From: Desulfobacteraceae bacterium
GTDB lineage: Bacteria > Desulfobacterota > Desulfobacteria > Desulfobacterales > Desulfosalsimonadaceae
Direction: 5' to 3'
Assembly (NCBI GenBank): GCA_021162325.1
Contig: JAGGYV010000220.1
Span: 1-37,728, forward strand
DNA length: 37,728 nucleotides
Positions 1-27,064 of the stretch are shown here, piece after piece (position 1 is the first letter of the stretch; every line of letters begins with the position of its first letter). A program made the translations under genes and the position numbers. Below the pieces are notes generated by a model. It had not been told where the DNA came from, made no database searches, and worked only from the letters and a program-made list of their open reading frames with translations.

Positions 1-1172
1 CGTCCAAAATCATAGGTGATGTTTGTATAATTTTTAAATAAAAACAGATTGGCGACAAACAGAGACTCTCGGTCAGAAAACTGCAGGTGCAGCGGATCGT
101 AATAAAAATCCTTAAGAAGATAATCCACATATTCATCTATGGATTTGCTGTCGGCAATCAACCGGACAATGCAGTTTAAAATGGTGTTTCTGTCGTCGTC
201 AATTGCAACGGACTTCAAATCCACCCAGAACATGTAAAAAGCATTTTCCCATTTTAAAAATAGACTCCGATGCTGATTGAACCGGGTTCTGTTAAATCTT
301 CCGGATTCGTCGAAACACTGCCGCCACATCTGAATGTATTTATTGTTATTGATTTCAATTGGAGACCGTGTGAATTTTGATTTTAAATCATCGATTATGA
401 AGATGGCATCATAGATACTGTTGGCATTTTTGAATTTTTCTCGGGATTTGTCCTGAAGCGTTAATCGATGAACCTTATCGGTTACTCCCTGGAATTTTTC
501 GATATTTAGTTTGTTTAATCCCGCCAGAATTGTCAGGCTGGGATTCGGGCGCCTGGTTTCATCCAGAATAATCCCGGTTCCATTTTTTTTTCCGGCCAGA
601 TACCGGCCCCAGCTTATTAAGGCGTCAGAGATATTTTGTTTGTCATTAAGCGTCCAGTCATTATATGAAATTTCAAGGATATAGATATTGGCATGATGAA
701 AAAATTGAAATGTTTTTTGTAATTTCTGGCCAAGTTCTTTGGTGTCCATGATCCCTAATTTAACCAGATAATCCAGCTGCTGATTATCGATGACGCAATC
801 ACCGACGGATATTACGTAATCGTTATTTAAAAAAAACTCACTTTCACCAATTTTAGCGGACGGACTCAGCCCGCGGTGACGAATAATAATTTTTTTATCG
901 TTTTCTTTTGTTGGTATCGAGATAAAGTCATTGATATTGTTGATAAGCGGGCGGATAACCGCTGTGGCTTTGACGCCCGGATCGTTCAACCGTAATTTGT
1001 CCAAGGCAACGGCCAGATTATAGGCAAATTCTAAAATATTTTTACGCCAGTGGTTCAGCTGTTCCAGTTCATCGATAAAAGAACTGGCGCAGGCACAGTC
1101 AGCAATGTCGGCAGGCTGCCCGAAGAGATCCTGAGCGGCTTTATTCAGTTTGTCAAAGTCGGACTTATTCAT
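1..1172 (-). CDS. Hypothetical protein, 3' part truncated by window start
   Basis: Uninterrupted minus-strand frame from ATG at 1172 (MNKSDFDKLNKAAQDLFGQPADIADCACASSFIDELEQLNHWRKN...) to position 1; absent from the ORF track because it has no stop inside the window. No family recognised. Confidence 0.8.
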   Translation of the reverse strand, partial: MNKSDFDKLNKAAQDLFGQPADIADCACASSFIDELEQLNHWRKNILEFAYNLAVALDKLRLNDPGVKATAVIRPLINNINDFISIPTKENDKKIIIRHRGLSPSAKIGESEFFLNNDYVISVGDCVIDNQQLDYLVKLGIMDTKELGQKLQKTFQFFHHANIYILEISYNDWTLNDKQNISDALISWGRYLAGKKNGTGIILDETRRPNPSLTILAGLNKLNIEKFQGVTDKVHRLTLQDKSREKFKNANSIYDAIFIIDDLKSKFTRSPIEINNNKYIQMWRQCFDESGRFNRTRFNQHRSLFLKWENAFYMFWVDLKSVAIDDDRNTILNCIVRLIADSKSIDEYVDYLLKDFYYDPLHLQFSDRESLFVANLFLFKNYTNITYDFG

Positions 1173-1215
1173 TGATTGGCTCTTTCTATAATTGTGCAAA
1201 AAAATATTTCGACGT

Positions 1216-2256
1216 TTACAAAAAAAGCGATTTATCAATTGCTTTTTCATATGCCGCTTTTTTGGTTATTTTATTGTCCCGCACCAGTTGAGATAAATGA
1301 CTGTCCATGCTTTGCATGCCGACGGATGTTCCGGTCTGGAGGATAGAACTGATCTGGGATATTTTTCCTTCCCGAATTAAATTGGATAACGCGGTTGATC
1401 CAATAAGAATTTCATTGGCCGCACACCGTCCGCCGGTCCGGGTTTTAATAAGTTGTTGAGCAATAACCGCCCGGAGGGATTCGGAAAGCATGGTCCGGAT
1501 TTGCGGCTGCTGATTTGATGGAAATACATTGATAATGCGATCAATTGTTCGTGCCGCGCTGTTTGTATGCAATGTCCCGAAAACGAGAATCCCCAGTTCT
1601 GCACAGGTTAATGCAAGGGAAATTGTTTCTAAATCCCGCATTTCTCCGACAAGGATAATATCCGGATTTTCACGACTGGCGACTTTTAATGCCTCTTCAA
1701 AGTTTATTGCATGAGAGCCGATTTCACGATGCGTGATCAGGCATTTTTTGTTTTGATGAACAAATTCCAGCGGGTCTTCAATCGTAATAATATGTGCATC
1801 GCGGGTATCGTTTATATAGTCAATCAGTGCGGCGAGAGTTGTCGACTTTCCACTGCCGGTGGGGCCGGTTACCAGAACAAGGCCTTTTGTATATTCGGAG
1901 ATAGTTTTAAGCACATCCGGAAGAGACAGGTCCGCCAATGTCAGTATTTTGGTGGGAATGATCCGGAACACAGCCCCAATCCCCCGATTTTGAAAAAAAT
2001 AATTACATCTGAAACGCCCAACCCCTTCCAGCTCATAGGCCATGTCAAAGTCCCGATTTTTTTCAAACTGGATTTGCTGATCCGGAGAAAGAATGTCAAA
2101 CAGTATTTTCTTACTTGAATCAGCTGTCAGAACCGGATGCTCAAGGGGAACCAGTTCGCCACTGAGCCTTATCATTGGCGGTAACCCGATAACCATGTGC
2201 AAGTCACTGGCACCACGGTCTTCCATTTCCGTAAAATATGAATGAATTTGTTTCAT
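1216..2256 (-). CDS. pilT: PilT-family type IV pilus retraction-like ATPase
   Basis: Walker A GPTGSGKST, Asp box TIEDPLEF, Walker B ENPDIILVGEMRD, His box GTLHTNSAARTIDRI, ALSNLIREGKISQ (PilT AIRNLIRE-like). Confidence 0.9.
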   Translation of the reverse strand: MKQIHSYFTEMEDRGASDLHMVIGLPPMIRLSGELVPLEHPVLTADSSKKILFDILSPDQQIQFEKNRDFDMAYELEGVGRFRCNYFFQNRGIGAVFRIIPTKILTLADLSLPDVLKTISEYTKGLVLVTGPTGSGKSTTLAALIDYINDTRDAHIITIEDPLEFVHQNKKCLITHREIGSHAINFEEALKVASRENPDIILVGEMRDLETISLALTCAELGILVFGTLHTNSAARTIDRIINVFPSNQQPQIRTMLSESLRAVIAQQLIKTRTGGRCAANEILIGSTALSNLIREGKISQISSILQTGTSVGMQSMDSHLSQLVRDNKITKKAAYEKAIDKSLFL

Positions 2257-2295
2257 AATCCAGAAATTCTCAAAAATTTATTAAATCAAAAAGAT

Positions 2296-3360
2296 TCAAT
2301 TGGGCTTATTTAAATATGGCTTGAATTGATCTGGTTTGCTTGAGCTGGACATCGCCTCTTTTGCGGATATCCTGCCATCCTGAATGAGTGCCATGAGCGA
2401 ATCGTCCATGAGCTGCATCCCGTCTTTTTTTTTGGTTTGCATCATCGATGGAATCTGAAACGTCTTTGAATCCCGAATTAAATTTGCCATTGATAATGTA
2501 CCGATTAAAATTTCAAGCGCCAAAACCATTTGACTCCCATCAGCCGCCGGAATCAATCTTTGGGTAATGATCGCTTTTAAAATCTCACTCAGCATGGCGC
2601 GGATCTGATTTTGTTCTTCAGATGGAAAGGAATCAATAATTCGCTCCACTGTTTTCGGTGCGCTGGAGGTTGACAGGGTCCCAATCACGAGATGTCCGGT
2701 TTCAGCGGCCGTGATGGCAAGAGACATTGTTTCAAGATCCCTTAGTTCTCCGATCATAATAACATCCGGATCCTGCCGGAGTGCCCCTTTTAAGGCATTG
2801 GCATAGGTTAATGTATCCGTTCCCAATTGTCTTTGGTTCACCACGCCTTTCTTAAACGGGTGAATAAATTCAATGGGATCTTCAATCGTCAGTATATGAT
2901 GTGCCCGGTTTTCGTTGATATAATCAATCATTGCCGCAAGCGTGGTTGACTTGCCATGCCCGGTGGCACCGGTGACCAGTATGAGGCCCTGATGATTGCC
3001 TAAAATCTGTTTTATGATGTCCGGTAATCCGAGAGAATCAAGGGGCGGAATTACCGGTGGGATAATACGAAAAACAGCGCTCAATCCCCGTTGATGGAGC
3101 ATGGCACTTCCCCGGAATCGACCGATGCCGGGAATGCCGTATATAAAATCCAGTTGAAATGTTTGTTCAAGGGTCTTTTTTTGCGGAGCTGTCAGGATCT
3201 CAAAAATAACTTCCTGGCATTGTGCCAGCGTCAGCGGGGGATGTTGTAGCTTTTGAAGTCTCCCCAAGTGCCTGATGATAATAGGTTCGTTCGTTACAAT
3301 ATGAATGTCTGAGGCCTTGGCATCAACAGCGGCACTGAATATTTTGTCTAATTTTGCCAT
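2296..3360 (-). CDS. PilT/PilU-like ATPase paralogue, His-box variant
   Basis: Walker A GATGHGKST, Walker B DPDVIMIGELRD, GTLSTSSAPKTVERIIDSFP; same architecture as the adjacent PilT. Confidence 0.88.
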   Translation of the reverse strand: MAKLDKIFSAAVDAKASDIHIVTNEPIIIRHLGRLQKLQHPPLTLAQCQEVIFEILTAPQKKTLEQTFQLDFIYGIPGIGRFRGSAMLHQRGLSAVFRIIPPVIPPLDSLGLPDIIKQILGNHQGLILVTGATGHGKSTTLAAMIDYINENRAHHILTIEDPIEFIHPFKKGVVNQRQLGTDTLTYANALKGALRQDPDVIMIGELRDLETMSLAITAAETGHLVIGTLSTSSAPKTVERIIDSFPSEEQNQIRAMLSEILKAIITQRLIPAADGSQMVLALEILIGTLSMANLIRDSKTFQIPSMMQTKKKDGMQLMDDSLMALIQDGRISAKEAMSSSSKPDQFKPYLNKPN

Positions 3361-3385
3361 TGAATAATTTCCTGTCAGTGAACCA

Positions 3386-3640
3386 TCATAATGACGTTTT
3401 AATTACCATATTTTCCGGGAGAATAATTTCGATATCCTCTATTCGAACATTGAGAAACGACGATTTCATTACCACCTCTCCATTCTGACGCTTTACTTCA
3501 ACCTCTGTAACTGCTATAAAAGATTTGGATTCATTTATATAATCGGTCAGCCTGACCCCCTCATAAATATGCAAATTTCCCTTAATTTCAAATTGACGGG
3601 TAAAAATAATGACCTTTAGTTTTCCGGAACCGTCACTCAT
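3386..3640 (-). CDS. Small conserved protein, resembles DUF6812-type
   Basis: 84 aa ORF starting just downstream of a purine-rich RBS (aggaggcagcc-ATG on minus strand); GKLKVIIFTRQFEIKGNLHIYEGVRLTDYIN. Family assignment from memory. Confidence 0.7.
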   Translation of the reverse strand: MSDGSGKLKVIIFTRQFEIKGNLHIYEGVRLTDYINESKSFIAVTEVEVKRQNGEVVMKSSFLNVRIEDIEIILPENMVIKTSL

Positions 3641-4185: not shown

Positions 4186-5277
4186 TCAGGCAATTGGCAG
4201 GATCAGGCTGAAGGTGGATCCCAGGCCTTCCTGGGTTTCGAACTTGATCCTGCCGTTGTGGGCTTCAATGATTTTTTTGGCAATGGCCAGTCCGAGCCCG
4301 GTACTGGTTTCCCCGCCGGTCGGCCGGATGCTGAGCCGGTGAAATTCAGAAAACAGCAGATGCTGTTCTTCTCTTGGAATGCCCGGGCCTTCATCCGTCA
4401 CACTGAACTTGACAATATTATCATCCTGCATCAGGCTTAAATACACGCTCGATCCCATGGGTGCAAATTTAATGGCATTGGAGATCAGGTTGTCAATTGC
4501 CTGTCCCAAACGGTGCGCGTCAAAAGCAATTTCCGGGATCAGGGACAGTTCTTTGTGAATAGAGATATGTTTTTTGTCAGCCTGTAATTTAATCAACTGG
4601 ATTCTTTCCAGAATTAATTTGTTTAATGATCCCTTTTTGGGTGAAAGTTGCATGTTGCCGCTTTCAATGCGTGAGATATCAAGCAGATCATTAATCATTG
4701 CCAGCATATTTCTGCTGGTGGAATAAATGATGTTTAAGAATTCATTTTGTTCCTCATTGAACGTGTTGGAATCTTTTAGCAGCAATTCGCTGAATCCTCT
4801 GATGGATATCACCGGATTCCGGAGGTCATGCGCAACAATACCAATGAATTTATTTTTCATTTCATTATTGCCGGTAAGTTCTCTTTGTTTTTCTATCAGT
4901 TTTCTTTCCAGTCTGACAATCCGCGTGCCAACCTTGATTCGGGCAATCAGTTCCTGAAGATTTACGGGTTTCATAATATATTCATCGACACCGGCTTCAA
5001 AGCCTTCAATTAAATCTTTTTTTTCTTCTTTAGCCGTCAGCATAATGATAAATACATAACCGGTTTTATGTTTTTCCCGGATTTTACGGCAGACATCAAT
5101 ACCGTCCATTCCCGGCAGGACCCAGTCGATTACGGCAATGTTGATGGGATGGTCAATAATTGTCGTAAATGTTTCAATGCCGTTTGAGGCCTCAAAGATA
5201 TTATATCCCTTTTTTTTCAGGTAGTGAGATATCATTTTTCGGCAAGCGGCATCATCATCGGCAATGAGTATATTCAT
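4186..5277 (-). CDS. Response regulator-histidine kinase fusion (REC-HisKA-HATPase)
   Basis: REC: NILIADDDAACRKM...VIDWVLPGMDG...MLTAKEE; HisKA: FIGIVAHDLRNPV; HATPase: NLISNAIKF, DEGPGIP, GLGLAIAKK. Confidence 0.93.
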   Translation of the reverse strand: MNILIADDDAACRKMISHYLKKKGYNIFEASNGIETFTTIIDHPINIAVIDWVLPGMDGIDVCRKIREKHKTGYVFIIMLTAKEEKKDLIEGFEAGVDEYIMKPVNLQELIARIKVGTRIVRLERKLIEKQRELTGNNEMKNKFIGIVAHDLRNPVISIRGFSELLLKDSNTFNEEQNEFLNIIYSTSRNMLAMINDLLDISRIESGNMQLSPKKGSLNKLILERIQLIKLQADKKHISIHKELSLIPEIAFDAHRLGQAIDNLISNAIKFAPMGSSVYLSLMQDDNIVKFSVTDEGPGIPREEQHLLFSEFHRLSIRPTGGETSTGLGLAIAKKIIEAHNGRIKFETQEGLGSTFSLILPIA

Positions 5278-5361: not shown

Positions 5362-7053
5362 TTAATTTTCGTGCAGTGAGTGAATTTCGGTAAAAGTGGT
5401 CAGGCCCCGGAGTACTTTTTTAATTCCGTCATATTCCTTGTCCTGGAAACCGTGTTTTTTACTTTGGTTCTTAATCTCATGGATCGTTGTATTTCGGTGG
5501 ATCGGATTTTTGATATCATTATTGATTACCAGCAGTTCCTGAATACCGATATACCCCTGATATCCGGTATGCTGACAATACGGGCAACCCATTGCGCGAT
5601 AGGCAAATATTTGGGGGGGACCTTCAAAAATAAACAGGTCTTCGGCTTCTTTGGGCGAAAGCAGATACTTTTTTTTACAATGATCACACAGCCGGCGGAC
5701 CTTTTTTTGATTGATGATGGCGGTGACAACTGAACCGATTTCCAGCCTGGTTGTGTTTAAGGCGTCAAATACATCGACCGCATTGATCCCGGCAATGATA
5801 AATTGTCCGGCCTCTGTAGCTTTTCGCAGGTTGCCGACAATCTCGGGATCATTGATGTTCTGAACATAGAGGGTTTTGGGGTGGAGATTCTGGCAGGATC
5901 TGAATGCATCCAAACGCGTAAAATTTGCCTTTGGGTTTACCTGGAGCTGATCAACTTCATTTAAAAGCCAGCGGGGAGAGTCTTCCACAGACATTATTTT
6001 ATGTGTGTTTAAAGAACGGATTTCATTGATAATTGAATAGGGAAGATCGATATAATCGGCGTCAGACGGTCCGGAAATAAGCATGATGCCTTTTCGGGCA
6101 TTGAGCTGGTGCTCGAGCAACCGCTTTGTTTTAAGAGACAGATGCAGATCAGATATTTTGGGTATATTGGTTAATGCCTGCCGGTCCATCAGTTTTAGAA
6201 ATATTTTTTCTCCGAATTTAGTGGAAAGGCTTAAAAATTGAATATCAAATTTTTTTCCGGGGGTCGGGAAGATGATCCGGCTGTATTGCGCCTCTTTTTT
6301 TTGGGCATCATCTATTTTTGCCATGGTTTTCAGCTTTTTTATCAGTAGACGATAAACGCTTTTTTCAAGTTGCAGCCGTTCATGGAACTCGCCGTTAATA
6401 ATAAAACAAATTCTGGCGATATGTTCCTCAGGCTCAATTTGAATTTCACTGCTGTGTTCTGTAATACCCAACAGAATCAGGCAAACATGAAGCTGATTAA
6501 TGCTTTCCTTGCCGGCGATTTCTTCAAACGCTTTTTCGCCGATGGGGCTGTCCGCGTCAAACACCTTGCTGGTGGAGATTTTAGTGAAAAATTCATATAA
6601 AGCAGTATTGGTCTGATATTCATTTTCAATTGCCCACTCAATATCCTGGGGCAGGGCAAAAACAAGGTTTGCCGGTCCGTTGATATAATGTTCAATCTGT
6701 TTTTTCAACTCGATACTGTCCGGAATCGGTGTGGCGACAGTCACCGTATCGCCCATCTGGTATATGGGGATGGCGTAATTTTGCCGGGCAAATCGTTCCG
6801 GTACTTTCCGGACCACTTCTGATTGAAACAGGGATTTTTCAAGATCAACGTGGGCAATGCCGATGGAATCGCACCAGAGCTGGCATAGTTGTCGTTTGGT
6901 GCCGATACCGCTTTGGATCAGGGTTGCCAGAACGTCTAATGCATTTTCTTCCAGTTCATTGAGCAGATCAGATATGAATTCATCGGGAATGATCTGTTGC
7001 TTTTTTAGGAGCTTAAAAAAAAGAGGGTTTTCAATTTTTGGCCGAATCATCAT
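5362..7053 (-). CDS. PilB/GspE-like protein with degenerate ATPase motifs (candidate pseudo-ATPase)
   Basis: C-terminal half aligns by eye to PilB/GspE: GIMLISGPSDADYIDLPYS (Walker A position), MSVEDSPRW (Asp box), VNPKANFTRLDAFRSCQNLHPKTLYVQNINDPE (Walker B region), zinc motif CDHC...CPYC-QHTGYQG retained. Confidence 0.85.
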   Translation of the reverse strand: MMIRPKIENPLFFKLLKKQQIIPDEFISDLLNELEENALDVLATLIQSGIGTKRQLCQLWCDSIGIAHVDLEKSLFQSEVVRKVPERFARQNYAIPIYQMGDTVTVATPIPDSIELKKQIEHYINGPANLVFALPQDIEWAIENEYQTNTALYEFFTKISTSKVFDADSPIGEKAFEEIAGKESINQLHVCLILLGITEHSSEIQIEPEEHIARICFIINGEFHERLQLEKSVYRLLIKKLKTMAKIDDAQKKEAQYSRIIFPTPGKKFDIQFLSLSTKFGEKIFLKLMDRQALTNIPKISDLHLSLKTKRLLEHQLNARKGIMLISGPSDADYIDLPYSIINEIRSLNTHKIMSVEDSPRWLLNEVDQLQVNPKANFTRLDAFRSCQNLHPKTLYVQNINDPEIVGNLRKATEAGQFIIAGINAVDVFDALNTTRLEIGSVVTAIINQKKVRRLCDHCKKKYLLSPKEAEDLFIFEGPPQIFAYRAMGCPYCQHTGYQGYIGIQELLVINNDIKNPIHRNTTIHEIKNQSKKHGFQDKEYDGIKKVLRGLTTFTEIHSLHEN

Positions 7054-7248: not shown

Positions 7249-7641
7249 TTAAAGGGACTTTTTGTAAGCGGCCCAGGTTTTTTTGATGACTTCCCGCATT
7301 TCATTAAGAGAGAGATCTTTTCGTATAAACCCGGAAGCGCCAAGTTCGATACAGTCTTCTACTGTCTCTTTATCAACCAAAGATGTCAGCATGATGATAA
7401 ACGCGTTTGGATATTTTTTTTTGATATCCGTCAGGGCTTCTTTTCCGGATTTTAACGGCATGTTGATATCTAAAAGCAGCATATTGGGTTTCAAGGTGCC
7501 GAACAATGAAACCGCTTCTTTTCCATTGTCGGCTTCGCCAACAATTTCACAGCCCATACTTTTGATAACTGTTGTTATTAGTTTTCTGACATGATCTTCA
7601 TCGTCGACGACCATGGCCCGGATTTTGCGTTTCGGCGGCAT
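7249..7641 (-). CDS. CheY-like single-domain response regulator
   Basis: MVVDDEDHVRKLI...MLLLDINMPLKSGKEAL...IIMLTSLVDKETV...GFIRKDLS. Confidence 0.93.
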   Translation of the reverse strand: MPPKRKIRAMVVDDEDHVRKLITTVIKSMGCEIVGEADNGKEAVSLFGTLKPNMLLLDINMPLKSGKEALTDIKKKYPNAFIIMLTSLVDKETVEDCIELGASGFIRKDLSLNEMREVIKKTWAAYKKSL

Positions 7642-20047: not shown

Positions 20048-21164
20048 GGGGACGCCCTTTATATTTATATATTTACATGCCGTTCGAATCATGTTATTAA
20101 AATTTTATGCCAAGAAAAGCCAGAATAGACGCACCGGGAGCAGTTCACCATATCATAGTCAGGGGTATCGAGCGGCATAAGATTTTCCGTGACGACCATG
20201 ACCGGGACAATTTTTTGAAACGGCTGGGTGATCTGGTCATCGAAACGCAGACTCAGTGTTTTGCATGGGCGCTGATCCCCAATCATTTTCACCTGCTGCT
20301 TAAAACCGGACAGGTGCCGGTGGCAACGGTCATGCAGCGGTTGCTGACCGGCTACGCCATTGGTTTCAACCGTCGGTACTGCCGAAGCGGGCACTTGTTC
20401 CAAAACCGCTATAAATCCATTCTGTGCCAGGAAGATGTCTACTTAAAAGAATTGGTTCGCTATATCCATTTGAATCCCTTACGGGCGGGGCTGGTACCGG
20501 ATCTTGCGACCCTGGATGGATTTCGGTTTGTCGGTCACAGCTATCTTATGGGAAAGCGCAAGAACGGCTGGCAGTCGACGGATAGTGTGCTGGCATTTTT
20601 TGGCGATCATATCTCGTCAGCACGGCGCAGGTATCGCGGCTATCTTAAGAAGGGTATTGCGTTGGGAAGACGCTCGGATTTGGTCGGTGGCGGGTTGGTT
20701 CGCAGTGCAGGCGGCTGGGCAGCGGTCAGATCGATGCGAAAAAACGGTGCGTTTCTAAAAAGCGATGAACGGATTTTAGGGGACAGCGATTTTGTGGATA
20801 CGGTTTTGTCCGATGCACAGGAAGCCATGCAGCGCAAGTATGCGTTGGCAGCCAGGGGTATCGATCTGAATTATGTGGTAGTTGTGGTGTCGGATTTGTT
20901 TTCTATTCACTCTGAAGATATTGTGGGTCCCTGCAAGCAGCGCGATATCGTGAAAGCCCGTATGCTTGTGTGCTACTGGGCTGTGCGGGAATTGGGTTTG
21001 TCGATGACCGAGGTGGCCGGGAAACTGGGAATATCAGTATCAACGGTGAGCGTTGCGGTTAAAAAAGGAGCGCAGACCGTTCGCCATGAAGGGTTGGTGT
21101 TGACGGATTTGATATAAAAGACGTACTCGTCGTCGGTAAATATACAAATATAAAGGGCGTCCCC
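20048..21164 (+). mobile_element. RAYT element bounded by 29-bp inverted repeats
   Basis: 20048-20076 GGGGACGCCCTTTATATTTATATATTTAC; 21136-21164 is its reverse complement with one mismatch; encloses the Y1 transposase. Confidence 0.87.
20107..21117 (+). CDS. REP-associated tyrosine (Y1/HUH) transposase with C-terminal DnaA-C/HTH-like domain
   Basis: RKARIDAPGAVHHIIVRGIERHKIF, IPNHFHLLLKTG (HUH), LVRYIHLNPLRAGLV (Tyr), C-term LGLSMTEVAGKLGISVSTVSVAVKKG. Confidence 0.93.
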   Translation: MPRKARIDAPGAVHHIIVRGIERHKIFRDDHDRDNFLKRLGDLVIETQTQCFAWALIPNHFHLLLKTGQVPVATVMQRLLTGYAIGFNRRYCRSGHLFQNRYKSILCQEDVYLKELVRYIHLNPLRAGLVPDLATLDGFRFVGHSYLMGKRKNGWQSTDSVLAFFGDHISSARRRYRGYLKKGIALGRRSDLVGGGLVRSAGGWAAVRSMRKNGAFLKSDERILGDSDFVDTVLSDAQEAMQRKYALAARGIDLNYVVVVVSDLFSIHSEDIVGPCKQRDIVKARMLVCYWAVRELGLSMTEVAGKLGISVSTVSVAVKKGAQTVRHEGLVLTDLI

Positions 21165-25360: not shown

Positions 25361-27064
25361 TTATTGATTTGAATTCAGTAATATCAAAGCGTTTTTAACG
25401 ATTTCTGTCAATAAATGAAACTGATTCATGTCAGGAGACGTAAGACGTTTTTGCAGATTTGTTAATGCGATGGGGATAAATTGTTCAAAAAAGGGTTTGT
25501 TTTTGATTTTTGACAGATACCCGAAAGCGCCTAAAGACTGTAATATCCTGGTGAGTGAACAATAGCGATAGCCTTGAAAAAATTTGTTTTTATCAATTGG
25601 CATCATTTGTTCAAGTTTTTTGCCGCTGTAATCTATCAGGATTTCCTGGATGGCTTCGGCCAAATTCACATAGGGATCAGTCAAAAGTGACGCCAGGTCA
25701 TACTGGACGGGACCGAGTCTTGCGCCCTGAAAATCAATAAAAAATATCTTACCGTCAGAAACCATGATATTTCTGGATTGCAGATCCCGGTGCATGAAAC
25801 CGGTCACTGAATTTTCAAGGGCGTGGTCTGCAAGGGATTCAAATTCCGTTTTTAAATCTGAATAGGCAACATCTGATTTAAGATAATTATTTAAAAACGC
25901 GTCAACAAAATACCGGCATTCCTTATCAAGGATTAATTGCCGGTCATATGCTTTTGTCTGATAGGTCCAGGCCGGGTCAAATGATTTTTCGCCGTTTATG
26001 GACATGTCAAGCGCCTGGTCGATCACTTTTTTATAAAGGTCAATGACCTCTATATTATTCCGCGCTTTTTGAATAACCGTCTGAAAATTGATGCCCCCCA
26101 GATCCTGGACATAAACCAGGCCGGAAAATACGTCTGAAAGAAAAATTTCCGGAACCGGGATTTTTTGTTTACGCAGGTGGCTGCCGATTCTTATAAATGA
26201 TTCCGCTTCAGCGATTTCTGCTTCTGAATGGATTCCATGGTCTGCCATGATCAGGCTATGGCTGTTTGAAGAGATCCTGTACCATTGCCGGTCTGATCCG
26301 TCACCCGCAAGCAGGGTACGTTCAAGAGGTCCATGGTTTTTTGAGCCAAACGCCTTATCAAAAGCTGTCGGCGCTGTTTTATGGTATACTGCTTCCGTAA
26401 AACTTTCAGGGGTGCCGATATCTTTCCAGTAATGGTTCGTTGACGTATATGCCTTGATCGTCAAACCTTTTTGAATCATCTTTTTATATACATCAATGCT
26501 GGAAATAAACTTGTTTTCCGGGATAAATTCCATAATCAGGGGATCGAGAATCTGGATACCGGTGAACGCCTGGCAGGAGACGTTTTTAGGCATGTTTTCG
26601 TCTTTACCGGAAAATGCAATGATATTTTCATTTTTATCGACCCGCACATGATTGAATGTTTGATAATCATGCATCACAAGGGTTGCCGGGTGAGGATGCT
26701 GTTGATGAAATGCCCGAACCGCTGAAATATCAATGTCGGTTAAAATATCACTGTTGATTACAAGAAATGGCTGGTCGCCTAAAAAATCAGAGACATTTTT
26801 AATGGCCCCGCCGGTGCCGAGGACTTTTTCTTCGTATCGCGTAGTGACTTTTATCGGATAATCCCGGCTCTGTATAAAAGATGTGATCTGTTGGTGCAGA
26901 TGGTGGACATTGATAACAATACCAGTAATCCCCATATTCATCAGCCGGCAAATGGTCAGATCGATCAGGGGGTGTCCGGCAATGGGAAACAAGGGCTTGG
27001 GAATATGTTCCGTATGCGGCCGGAGCCGGGTGCCGTAACCGGCGGCCAGTACAAGCGCTTTCAT
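25361..27064 (-). CDS. Nucleotidyltransferase (MurU-like) fused to aminoglycoside-phosphotransferase-type kinase (AmgK-like)
   Basis: N-term MKALVLAAGYGTRLRPHTEHIPKPLFPIAGHPLID, VINSDIL; C-term FMHRDLQSRNIMV...FFIDFQGARLGPVQYDLASLL. Confidence 0.85.
   Translation of the reverse strand: MKALVLAAGYGTRLRPHTEHIPKPLFPIAGHPLIDLTICRLMNMGITGIVINVHHLHQQITSFIQSRDYPIKVTTRYEEKVLGTGGAIKNVSDFLGDQPFLVINSDILTDIDISAVRAFHQQHPHPATLVMHDYQTFNHVRVDKNENIIAFSGKDENMPKNVSCQAFTGIQILDPLIMEFIPENKFISSIDVYKKMIQKGLTIKAYTSTNHYWKDIGTPESFTEAVYHKTAPTAFDKAFGSKNHGPLERTLLAGDGSDRQWYRISSNSHSLIMADHGIHSEAEIAEAESFIRIGSHLRKQKIPVPEIFLSDVFSGLVYVQDLGGINFQTVIQKARNNIEVIDLYKKVIDQALDMSINGEKSFDPAWTYQTKAYDRQLILDKECRYFVDAFLNNYLKSDVAYSDLKTEFESLADHALENSVTGFMHRDLQSRNIMVSDGKIFFIDFQGARLGPVQYDLASLLTDPYVNLAEAIQEILIDYSGKKLEQMMPIDKNKFFQGYRYCSLTRILQSLGAFGYLSKIKNKPFFEQFIPIALTNLQKRLTSPDMNQFHLLTEIVKNALILLNSNQ

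Follow-up and report, generated by a model that had tools for sequence, protein, structure and literature searches.

What can become of a PilB/GspE-like motor protein that has lost the residues needed to use ATP, and which signals might then act on it? The question is raised by a gene in the window analyzed here, the whole stretch of 37,728 nucleotides, which stems from a MAG (~3.1 Mb, 93% complete) of the Desulfobacterales, in a group of sulfate reducers, with Desulfococcaceae, Desulfobacteraceae and Desulfobacterales MAGs as its nearest named relatives. A conserved family of such proteins without ATPase residues asks which parts of a pilus motor matter besides ATP hydrolysis, and its linkage to a kinase and a receiver asks by which route filament machines receive two-component signals. 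The features concerned are collected in Table 1.

Table 1 Features of the three-gene locus. The coordinates of codons 334-335 follow from the ORF start, position 7053.
Feature	Position	Strand	Basis
Single-domain (CheY-like) receiver, 130 aa, upstream partner	7249..7641	minus	Pfam Response_reg 9e-27
Non-catalytic PilB/GspE-like protein (pseudo-motor), 563 aa	5362..7053	minus	ATG to stop
Pseudo-motor, MshEN-like N-terminal domain	residues ~36-150		
Pseudo-motor, N2D	residues ~191-300		
Pseudo-motor, RecA-like core	residues 321-440		
Pseudo-motor, zinc tetracysteine and C-terminal part	residues 441-563		
Codons 334-335 (Y-I), Walker A Lys-Thr position in GPSDADYIDL (residues 328-337)	6049..6054	minus	Alignment to active relatives
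Codon 399 (Asn), catalytic Glu position	5857..5859	minus	Residue table
REC-HisKA-HATPase kinase, 363 aa, downstream partner	4186..5277	minus	Pfam

Fold family and catalytic residues of the pseudo-motor

A sequence-only reading of this DNA had described an intact frame of 563 codons with a T2SSE_N-like N-terminus and had placed the protein among PilB and GspE, and both statements withstood the searches. The frame is uninterrupted, the plus strand opposite it is rich in stops, and the protein matches Pfam MshEN (formerly T2SSE_N) with 44.8 bits (E 1.3e-11) and Pfam T2SSE (PF00437) with 169.5 bits (E 1.1e-49), passing the curated cut-off of 24.9. NCBIfam models for PilB/GspE match over the full length with 211 and 208 bits, which is far below their equivalog cut-offs and about a third of these (TIGR02538, 211.1 versus 675.65; TIGR02533, 207.8 versus 630.25). 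Among solved structures, those of Thermus PilF, Geobacter PilB and Vibrio GspE are nearest in sequence, and an AlphaFold model computed with 28 relatives as input (pLDDT 84, pTM 0.54) found GspE 4pht (2e-36), PilF 5oiu/5it5 and PilB 5tsh as top Foldseek matches, with a TM(target) of 0.81 for 5it5. By profile and by predicted structure, the product is a true PilB/GspE homologue. With the PilB/GspE ATPases (PilT-like ASCE family) it shares length, fold and the domain order MshEN-N2D-RecA core-zinc tetracysteine; it differs from them in the loss of the arginine fingers, the Walker A Lys, the catalytic Glu and the HIS-box His, and its gene does not adjoin one for PilC/GspF.

Residue roles were assigned according to McCallum et al. 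2017 (PMC5424180). Nine key positions were compared. At the two arginine fingers, the Lys and Thr/Ser of Walker A, both Glu of the ASP box, the catalytic Glu and the Thr and His of the HIS box, active relatives have RRK[TS]EEETH and the pseudo-motor has QKYIERNGN. Both arginine fingers are replaced (Q272, K287), the Walker A consensus GxxGxGK[ST] is unmet by GPSDADYI, the second ASP-box Glu has become R, the HIS-box Thr has become G and the HIS-box His N424. Glu357, the first ASP-box Glu, is the only survivor of the nine and is kept in every sequence compared. The Walker A string, the altered Walker B region HPKTLYVQNINDPE and the zinc tetracysteine CDHC...CPYC had all been quoted correctly in the sequence-only reading; the HIS box is degenerate as it claimed, with the string AGINAVDV in place of its AGINAVDA. 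Judged by these residues, the protein lacks every part needed for ATP use.

This condition is common to the family. No competent catalytic site was found among 24 full-length orthologues: the catalytic Glu and the HIS-box His are lost in all 24 and the arginine fingers in most, while CDHC and CPYC are common to all of them and the C-terminal segment DGIKKxLRGLT is kept throughout. About half of the orthologues retain a GK[ST] P-loop although catalytic Glu and His are gone. Together with the invariant first ASP-box Glu, which coordinates Mg in PilB, and with the signaling of nucleotide-free PilB in Myxococcus (PMC5544727), this speaks for a nucleotide sensor that no longer hydrolyzes and whose binding still gates signaling. 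We nevertheless regard such a sensor as improbable, since the position of the Walker A Lys holds Y/F in the pseudo-motor and its genus and Q/A in genus g7, and most members lack the phosphate-contacting arginine fingers. A different ligand had been suggested as well, c-di-GMP. The c-di-GMP receptor MshEN carries a tandem 24-residue motif, RLGxx..G..LxxxLxxQ (PMC5013675), for which neither the non-catalytic family nor its intact clade relatives yielded a strict or relaxed match; the one relaxed copy found lies in an outgroup protein (L111). The missing motif weakens the idea of a c-di-GMP sensor, and sensing via MshEN was rejected on this ground.

Maintenance, shifted constraint and order of loss

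Full-length, stop-free orthologues are present in 24 of the 36 genomes of the family, and one further genome holds the gene in two pieces at contig ends. As these orthologues come from separately assembled genomes and share the loss of catalytic residues, chance or assembly error is excluded. The 12 genomes without a full-length match comprise nine of genus g4, the others being incomplete or fragmented, and the pseudo-motor is therefore dispensable. Between genus members, dN/dS of the pseudo-motor amounts to 0.12-0.23, compared with 0.07-0.17 in the receiver, 0.06-0.12 in the kinase and 0.04-0.09 in HtpG (Nei-Gojobori, custom script; several dS values exceed 1, so that the ratios are rough). 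Within the pseudo-motor, residues 1-190 reach 0.06-0.11 and the core ~0.1-0.3. These ratios, which the sequence-only reading had proposed as a check, show purifying selection.

Constraint has moved within the protein. Mean pairwise identity in the non-catalytic family is 0.73 for the N-terminal domain and 0.45 for the core, with the N2D and core surfaces diverging fastest; the reverse holds for 17 intact relatives of similar overall depth, with 0.47 for the N-terminal domain and 0.76 for the core. The non-catalytic family has a new residue fixed at 20 positions, among them G398->Q (the Walker B Gly), D203->E and F339->Y (each 24/24), and the new invariant residues are located where active ones are lost. 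These two features, the shift and the new fixed residues, fit a change of function better than a loss of function. That the gene is decaying on its way to loss would agree with the stepwise disappearance of motifs, the faster change of the core and the absence from genus g4. This is extremely unlikely, since 24 genomes have the frame at full length, every segment, the core included, has a dN/dS well under 1, new invariant residues have arisen and the N-terminal domain has a mean identity of 73%; a pseudogene is ruled out by the frames and the dN/dS of 0.12-0.23. The earlier description of a maintained, non-catalytic paralogue and not a decaying gene is borne out by the full-length orthologues, the low dN/dS and the shared catalytic loss. 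Orthologues with intact Walker motifs in combination with frameshifts at this locus had been named as evidence against that description, and half of this applies: intact relatives do exist farther out in the clade, but there is no frameshift here.

A tree built without the motif columns unites the intact relatives and the non-catalytic family in a clade of 48 sequences (24 of them from this family), which is separated from GspE/PilB paralogues with a bootstrap of 100. An order-wide search told the clade from other motors by score (E <1e-183, then 1e-143 and 1e-138, then ~1e-127). In a phylum sample of 395 genomes, a search with the N-terminal domain found, besides two genomes of the own genus, only three, all of family f155, where 9 of 26 genomes carry a clade member. 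Since the clade holds the same protein in intact, partly eroded and fully dead form, the order of loss can be read. Outside the non-catalytic family the intact form is the commonest, and partly or fully eroded forms are found at L055, L098, L099, L103, L105, L106 and L126. L103, eroded, is sister to the non-catalytic family; L052, which belongs to the next group out, has an intact site; L106 sits on a long branch and its placement is unsure. By parsimony, the catalytic Glu changed at least four times and the Walker A Lys at least twice, with both Lys changes inside the non-catalytic family. Among the sampled sequences, partly eroded relatives have altered arginine fingers and HIS box while Walker A and catalytic Glu are kept. 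In this sample, catalytic residues were lost first and the Walker A Lys last, twice. One further PilB-like frame (L107:4526-6148) has unknown residues across the HIS box and the first Cys region and was left unscored.

The kinase-receiver locus and the neighbors of intact relatives

On the minus strand of the window, the genes follow in the order receiver, pseudo-motor and REC-kinase, with htpG and then a rhomboid gene upstream. The receiver retains the acidic pair, the phospho-Asp, the Thr and the Lys, and in the kinase phospho-Asp, phospho-His and the ATP-binding boxes are intact. The same three genes occur in the same order in all 17 relatives with contigs long enough. We consider the flanking receiver and REC-kinase, which the sequence-only reading did not mention, the most specific functional clue. 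The linkage could in part reflect the position near htpG. In three genomes of the sister genus g4 that were checked, the htpG-rhomboid-HD-PTS-CLC locus is present and the three-gene block is missing, and neither a receiver orthologue (E<=1e-20) nor a pseudo-motor was found in nine g4 genomes, two of which are less than 90% complete and gave no htpG hit. This pattern of presence and absence of the block argues against mere positional inertia. Predicted promoters and terminators are equal in number to those in shuffles and carry no information.

The module contains no platform protein and no pilin, and its target could therefore lie outside pili; likewise, the partner of the conserved N-terminal domain need not belong to a filament system. 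One such possibility is that the pseudo-motor scaffolds the kinase-receiver pair, perhaps as a localization platform, and has no filament role left. Receiver and kinase as sole constant partners, the lack of a filament gene in the module and the relaxed catalytic and interface parts all point this way. Pure scaffolding would make the tetracysteine and DGIKKxLRGLT, which are kept throughout, needless, and the intact relatives are clearly motors, in one family even next to a PilT-like gene, so that we hold this explanation to be quite unlikely.

Several candidates for further members or other roles of the module were rejected. The PilT pair next door (1216-3360) does not belong to it, as no PilT flanks relatives of 57-79% identity. 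It belongs to a region (window 3-3640), located beside the module only in this genome, in which DUF6812 and a 416-aa protein that matches no Pfam or NCBIfam model accompany two PilT-type genes. An ODP-type sensor feeding the module of the window was not found at the locus; the hits of the ODP profile in the own family lie elsewhere, and the best of these measure ~400 aa, which we take to be the size of ordinary flavodiiron proteins. A defence system was dismissed because PADLOC gave no hit for pseudo-motor or receiver and weak partial hits for the kinase only.

Nearly all clade members adjoin a receiver, and the intact ones usually a kinase too. At L053, L054, L108, L109 and L176-L181, the order is ODP-family protein (PF19583), kinase, receiver and PilB-like motor, and at the eight f155 loci among these (L108, L109, L176-L181) a PilT-like protein precedes the ODP-family gene. 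The PilT-like protein of L108, the only copy scanned, has an N-terminal MshEN domain according to Pfam. All ten readable ODP-linked motors have intact motifs; none of the eroded motors has a neighboring ODP-family gene, and some intact ones are without it too. The first iron-ligand segment of flavodiiron proteins reads HxExDH, and it reads HYDPD or NYDPR in the ODP-family proteins of the relatives. In Treponema denticola, ODP senses oxygen for chemotaxis (PMC7666581); we do not claim oxygen sensing for the proteins of the relatives because of their altered segment.

The arrangement [PilT-like]-ODP-family-histidine kinase-receiver-intact PilB-like motor may constitute a sensor-to-pilus-motor cassette in its own right. 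At L110/L126 (G682), a PilT-like gene adjoins an eroded PilB-like gene and ODP, kinase and receiver are missing; sister genomes have the full cluster. The PilT-like proteins L108:12406-14073 and L109:11326-13005 read STILAT or STLMAA in the HIS-box region, which looks eroded.

Proposed function and relation to known systems

There is strong support that the pseudo-motor belongs to this fold family, has lost its ATPase residues, is under purifying selection and has a fixed linkage to a receiver and a REC-kinase, both competent. From this we infer its partners and output. The pseudo-motor is probably not a motor but a phosphorelay-controlled, non-catalytic adaptor that arose from a kinase-coupled, PilB-like type IV filament motor. 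The REC-kinase, fed via its own N-terminal receiver, would pass phosphate to the single-domain receiver, and the phosphorylated receiver would bind the pseudo-motor, most likely via the unusually conserved MshEN-like N-terminal domain. The bound pseudo-motor may then change its engagement with the platform protein PilC/GspF or with active PilB/GspE/PilT motors, and would in this way act on filament dynamics as a brake, clutch or adaptor that is gated by phosphorylation. We advance a scenario for its origin more tentatively: it is possible that a PilB-like motor was at first driven by the kinase-receiver cassette in response to an ODP (metallo-beta-lactamase-fold) sensor and that this motor was later stripped of catalysis in several lineages with the phospho-switch kept, so that it would now be a clutch, controlled by phosphorylation, on the other pilus or secretion motors of the cell.

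Besides GspE, GspF and further T2SS genes, the genome encodes a PilC that adjoins a PilS-like kinase, two more PilB-like motors, both with extended N-termini, and PilT-type proteins, so that possible intact partners are at hand. Two nearly complete relatives each have at least five intact PilB/GspE-type motors and three platform proteins, the latter counted as pairs of T2SSF matches. Candidate targets thus exist, but nothing singles one out. The intact GspE and PilB-like motors would also allow a mixed hexamer, in which active PilB/GspE would be poisoned or tuned by the dead protein, whose incorporation the receiver would control. The dead protein retains the hexamer-forming fold of its Foldseek matches GspE 4pht, PilF 5oiu and PilB 5tsh as well as the C-terminal and zinc parts, and cooperation between PilT and PilU, with Walker-dead PilT rescued by PilU, offers a parallel (reviewed in PMC11656802). 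However, the arginine fingers and the HIS-box Thr and His, which bridge neighboring subunits, are lost, and the N2D and core surfaces diverge fastest, weakening the conservation of an interface with active motors. We therefore judge the mixed hexamer unlikely and prefer the phosphorelay-controlled adaptor.

The components of the module are of known kinds. PilU is PilT-like, keeps its ATPase motifs and has no tetracysteine, unlike the pseudo-motor. As a second motor paralogue modulating the main one (PMC6762196), it is nonetheless comparable to the role proposed for the pseudo-motor. The inferred steps are supported by precedents for receivers acting on PilB and for signaling by Myxococcus PilB. 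In Xanthomonas oryzae pv. oryzicola, the receiver EmvR binds PilB and inhibits it non-competitively, for which Asp-59 is needed (PMC11973254). Like the module proposed here, this is a stand-alone receiver acting on a PilB-type protein; EmvR is an orphan and its PilB active, whereas here receiver, kinase and dead PilB-like protein form one gene cluster. PixE binds PilB1 in Synechocystis (reviewed in PMC7690835), so that a CheY-like output protein meets a pilus motor as we propose, but this motor is active and the PATAN domain of these CheY-like proteins is absent here. Walker-mutant PilB of Myxococcus xanthus serves as an exopolysaccharide signal, and nucleotide-free PilB signals (PMC5544727). 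This is a signaling role of a non-hydrolyzing protein without pilus assembly, held there by an engineered allele of the sole motor, whereas here it would be held by a natural, dedicated paralogue. The catalytic glutamate and Walker A/B are described as common to all extension ATPases in a 2024 review that covers PilB and its cofactors (PMC11656802). In the literature searched, in which coverage of subscription journals was limited, we found no published equivalent of a natural, degenerate PilB/GspE pseudo-ATPase family coupled to a kinase and a receiver.

Some further genes are recorded as separate observations. The two long, intact PilB-like motors of the genome, G000:C241 (L149:1888-4212) and G000:C249 (L148:3253-5640), have ~200 extra N-terminal residues; one of them has a GAF domain and the other lies one gene from an adenylate/guanylate cyclase-domain gene. 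Elsewhere in the window, an IS200-like (Y1) transposase is fused to a DnaA C-terminal helix-turn-helix domain (20107-21117, plus strand), and a nucleotidyltransferase domain is fused to an APH-type phosphotransferase domain (25361-27064, minus strand).
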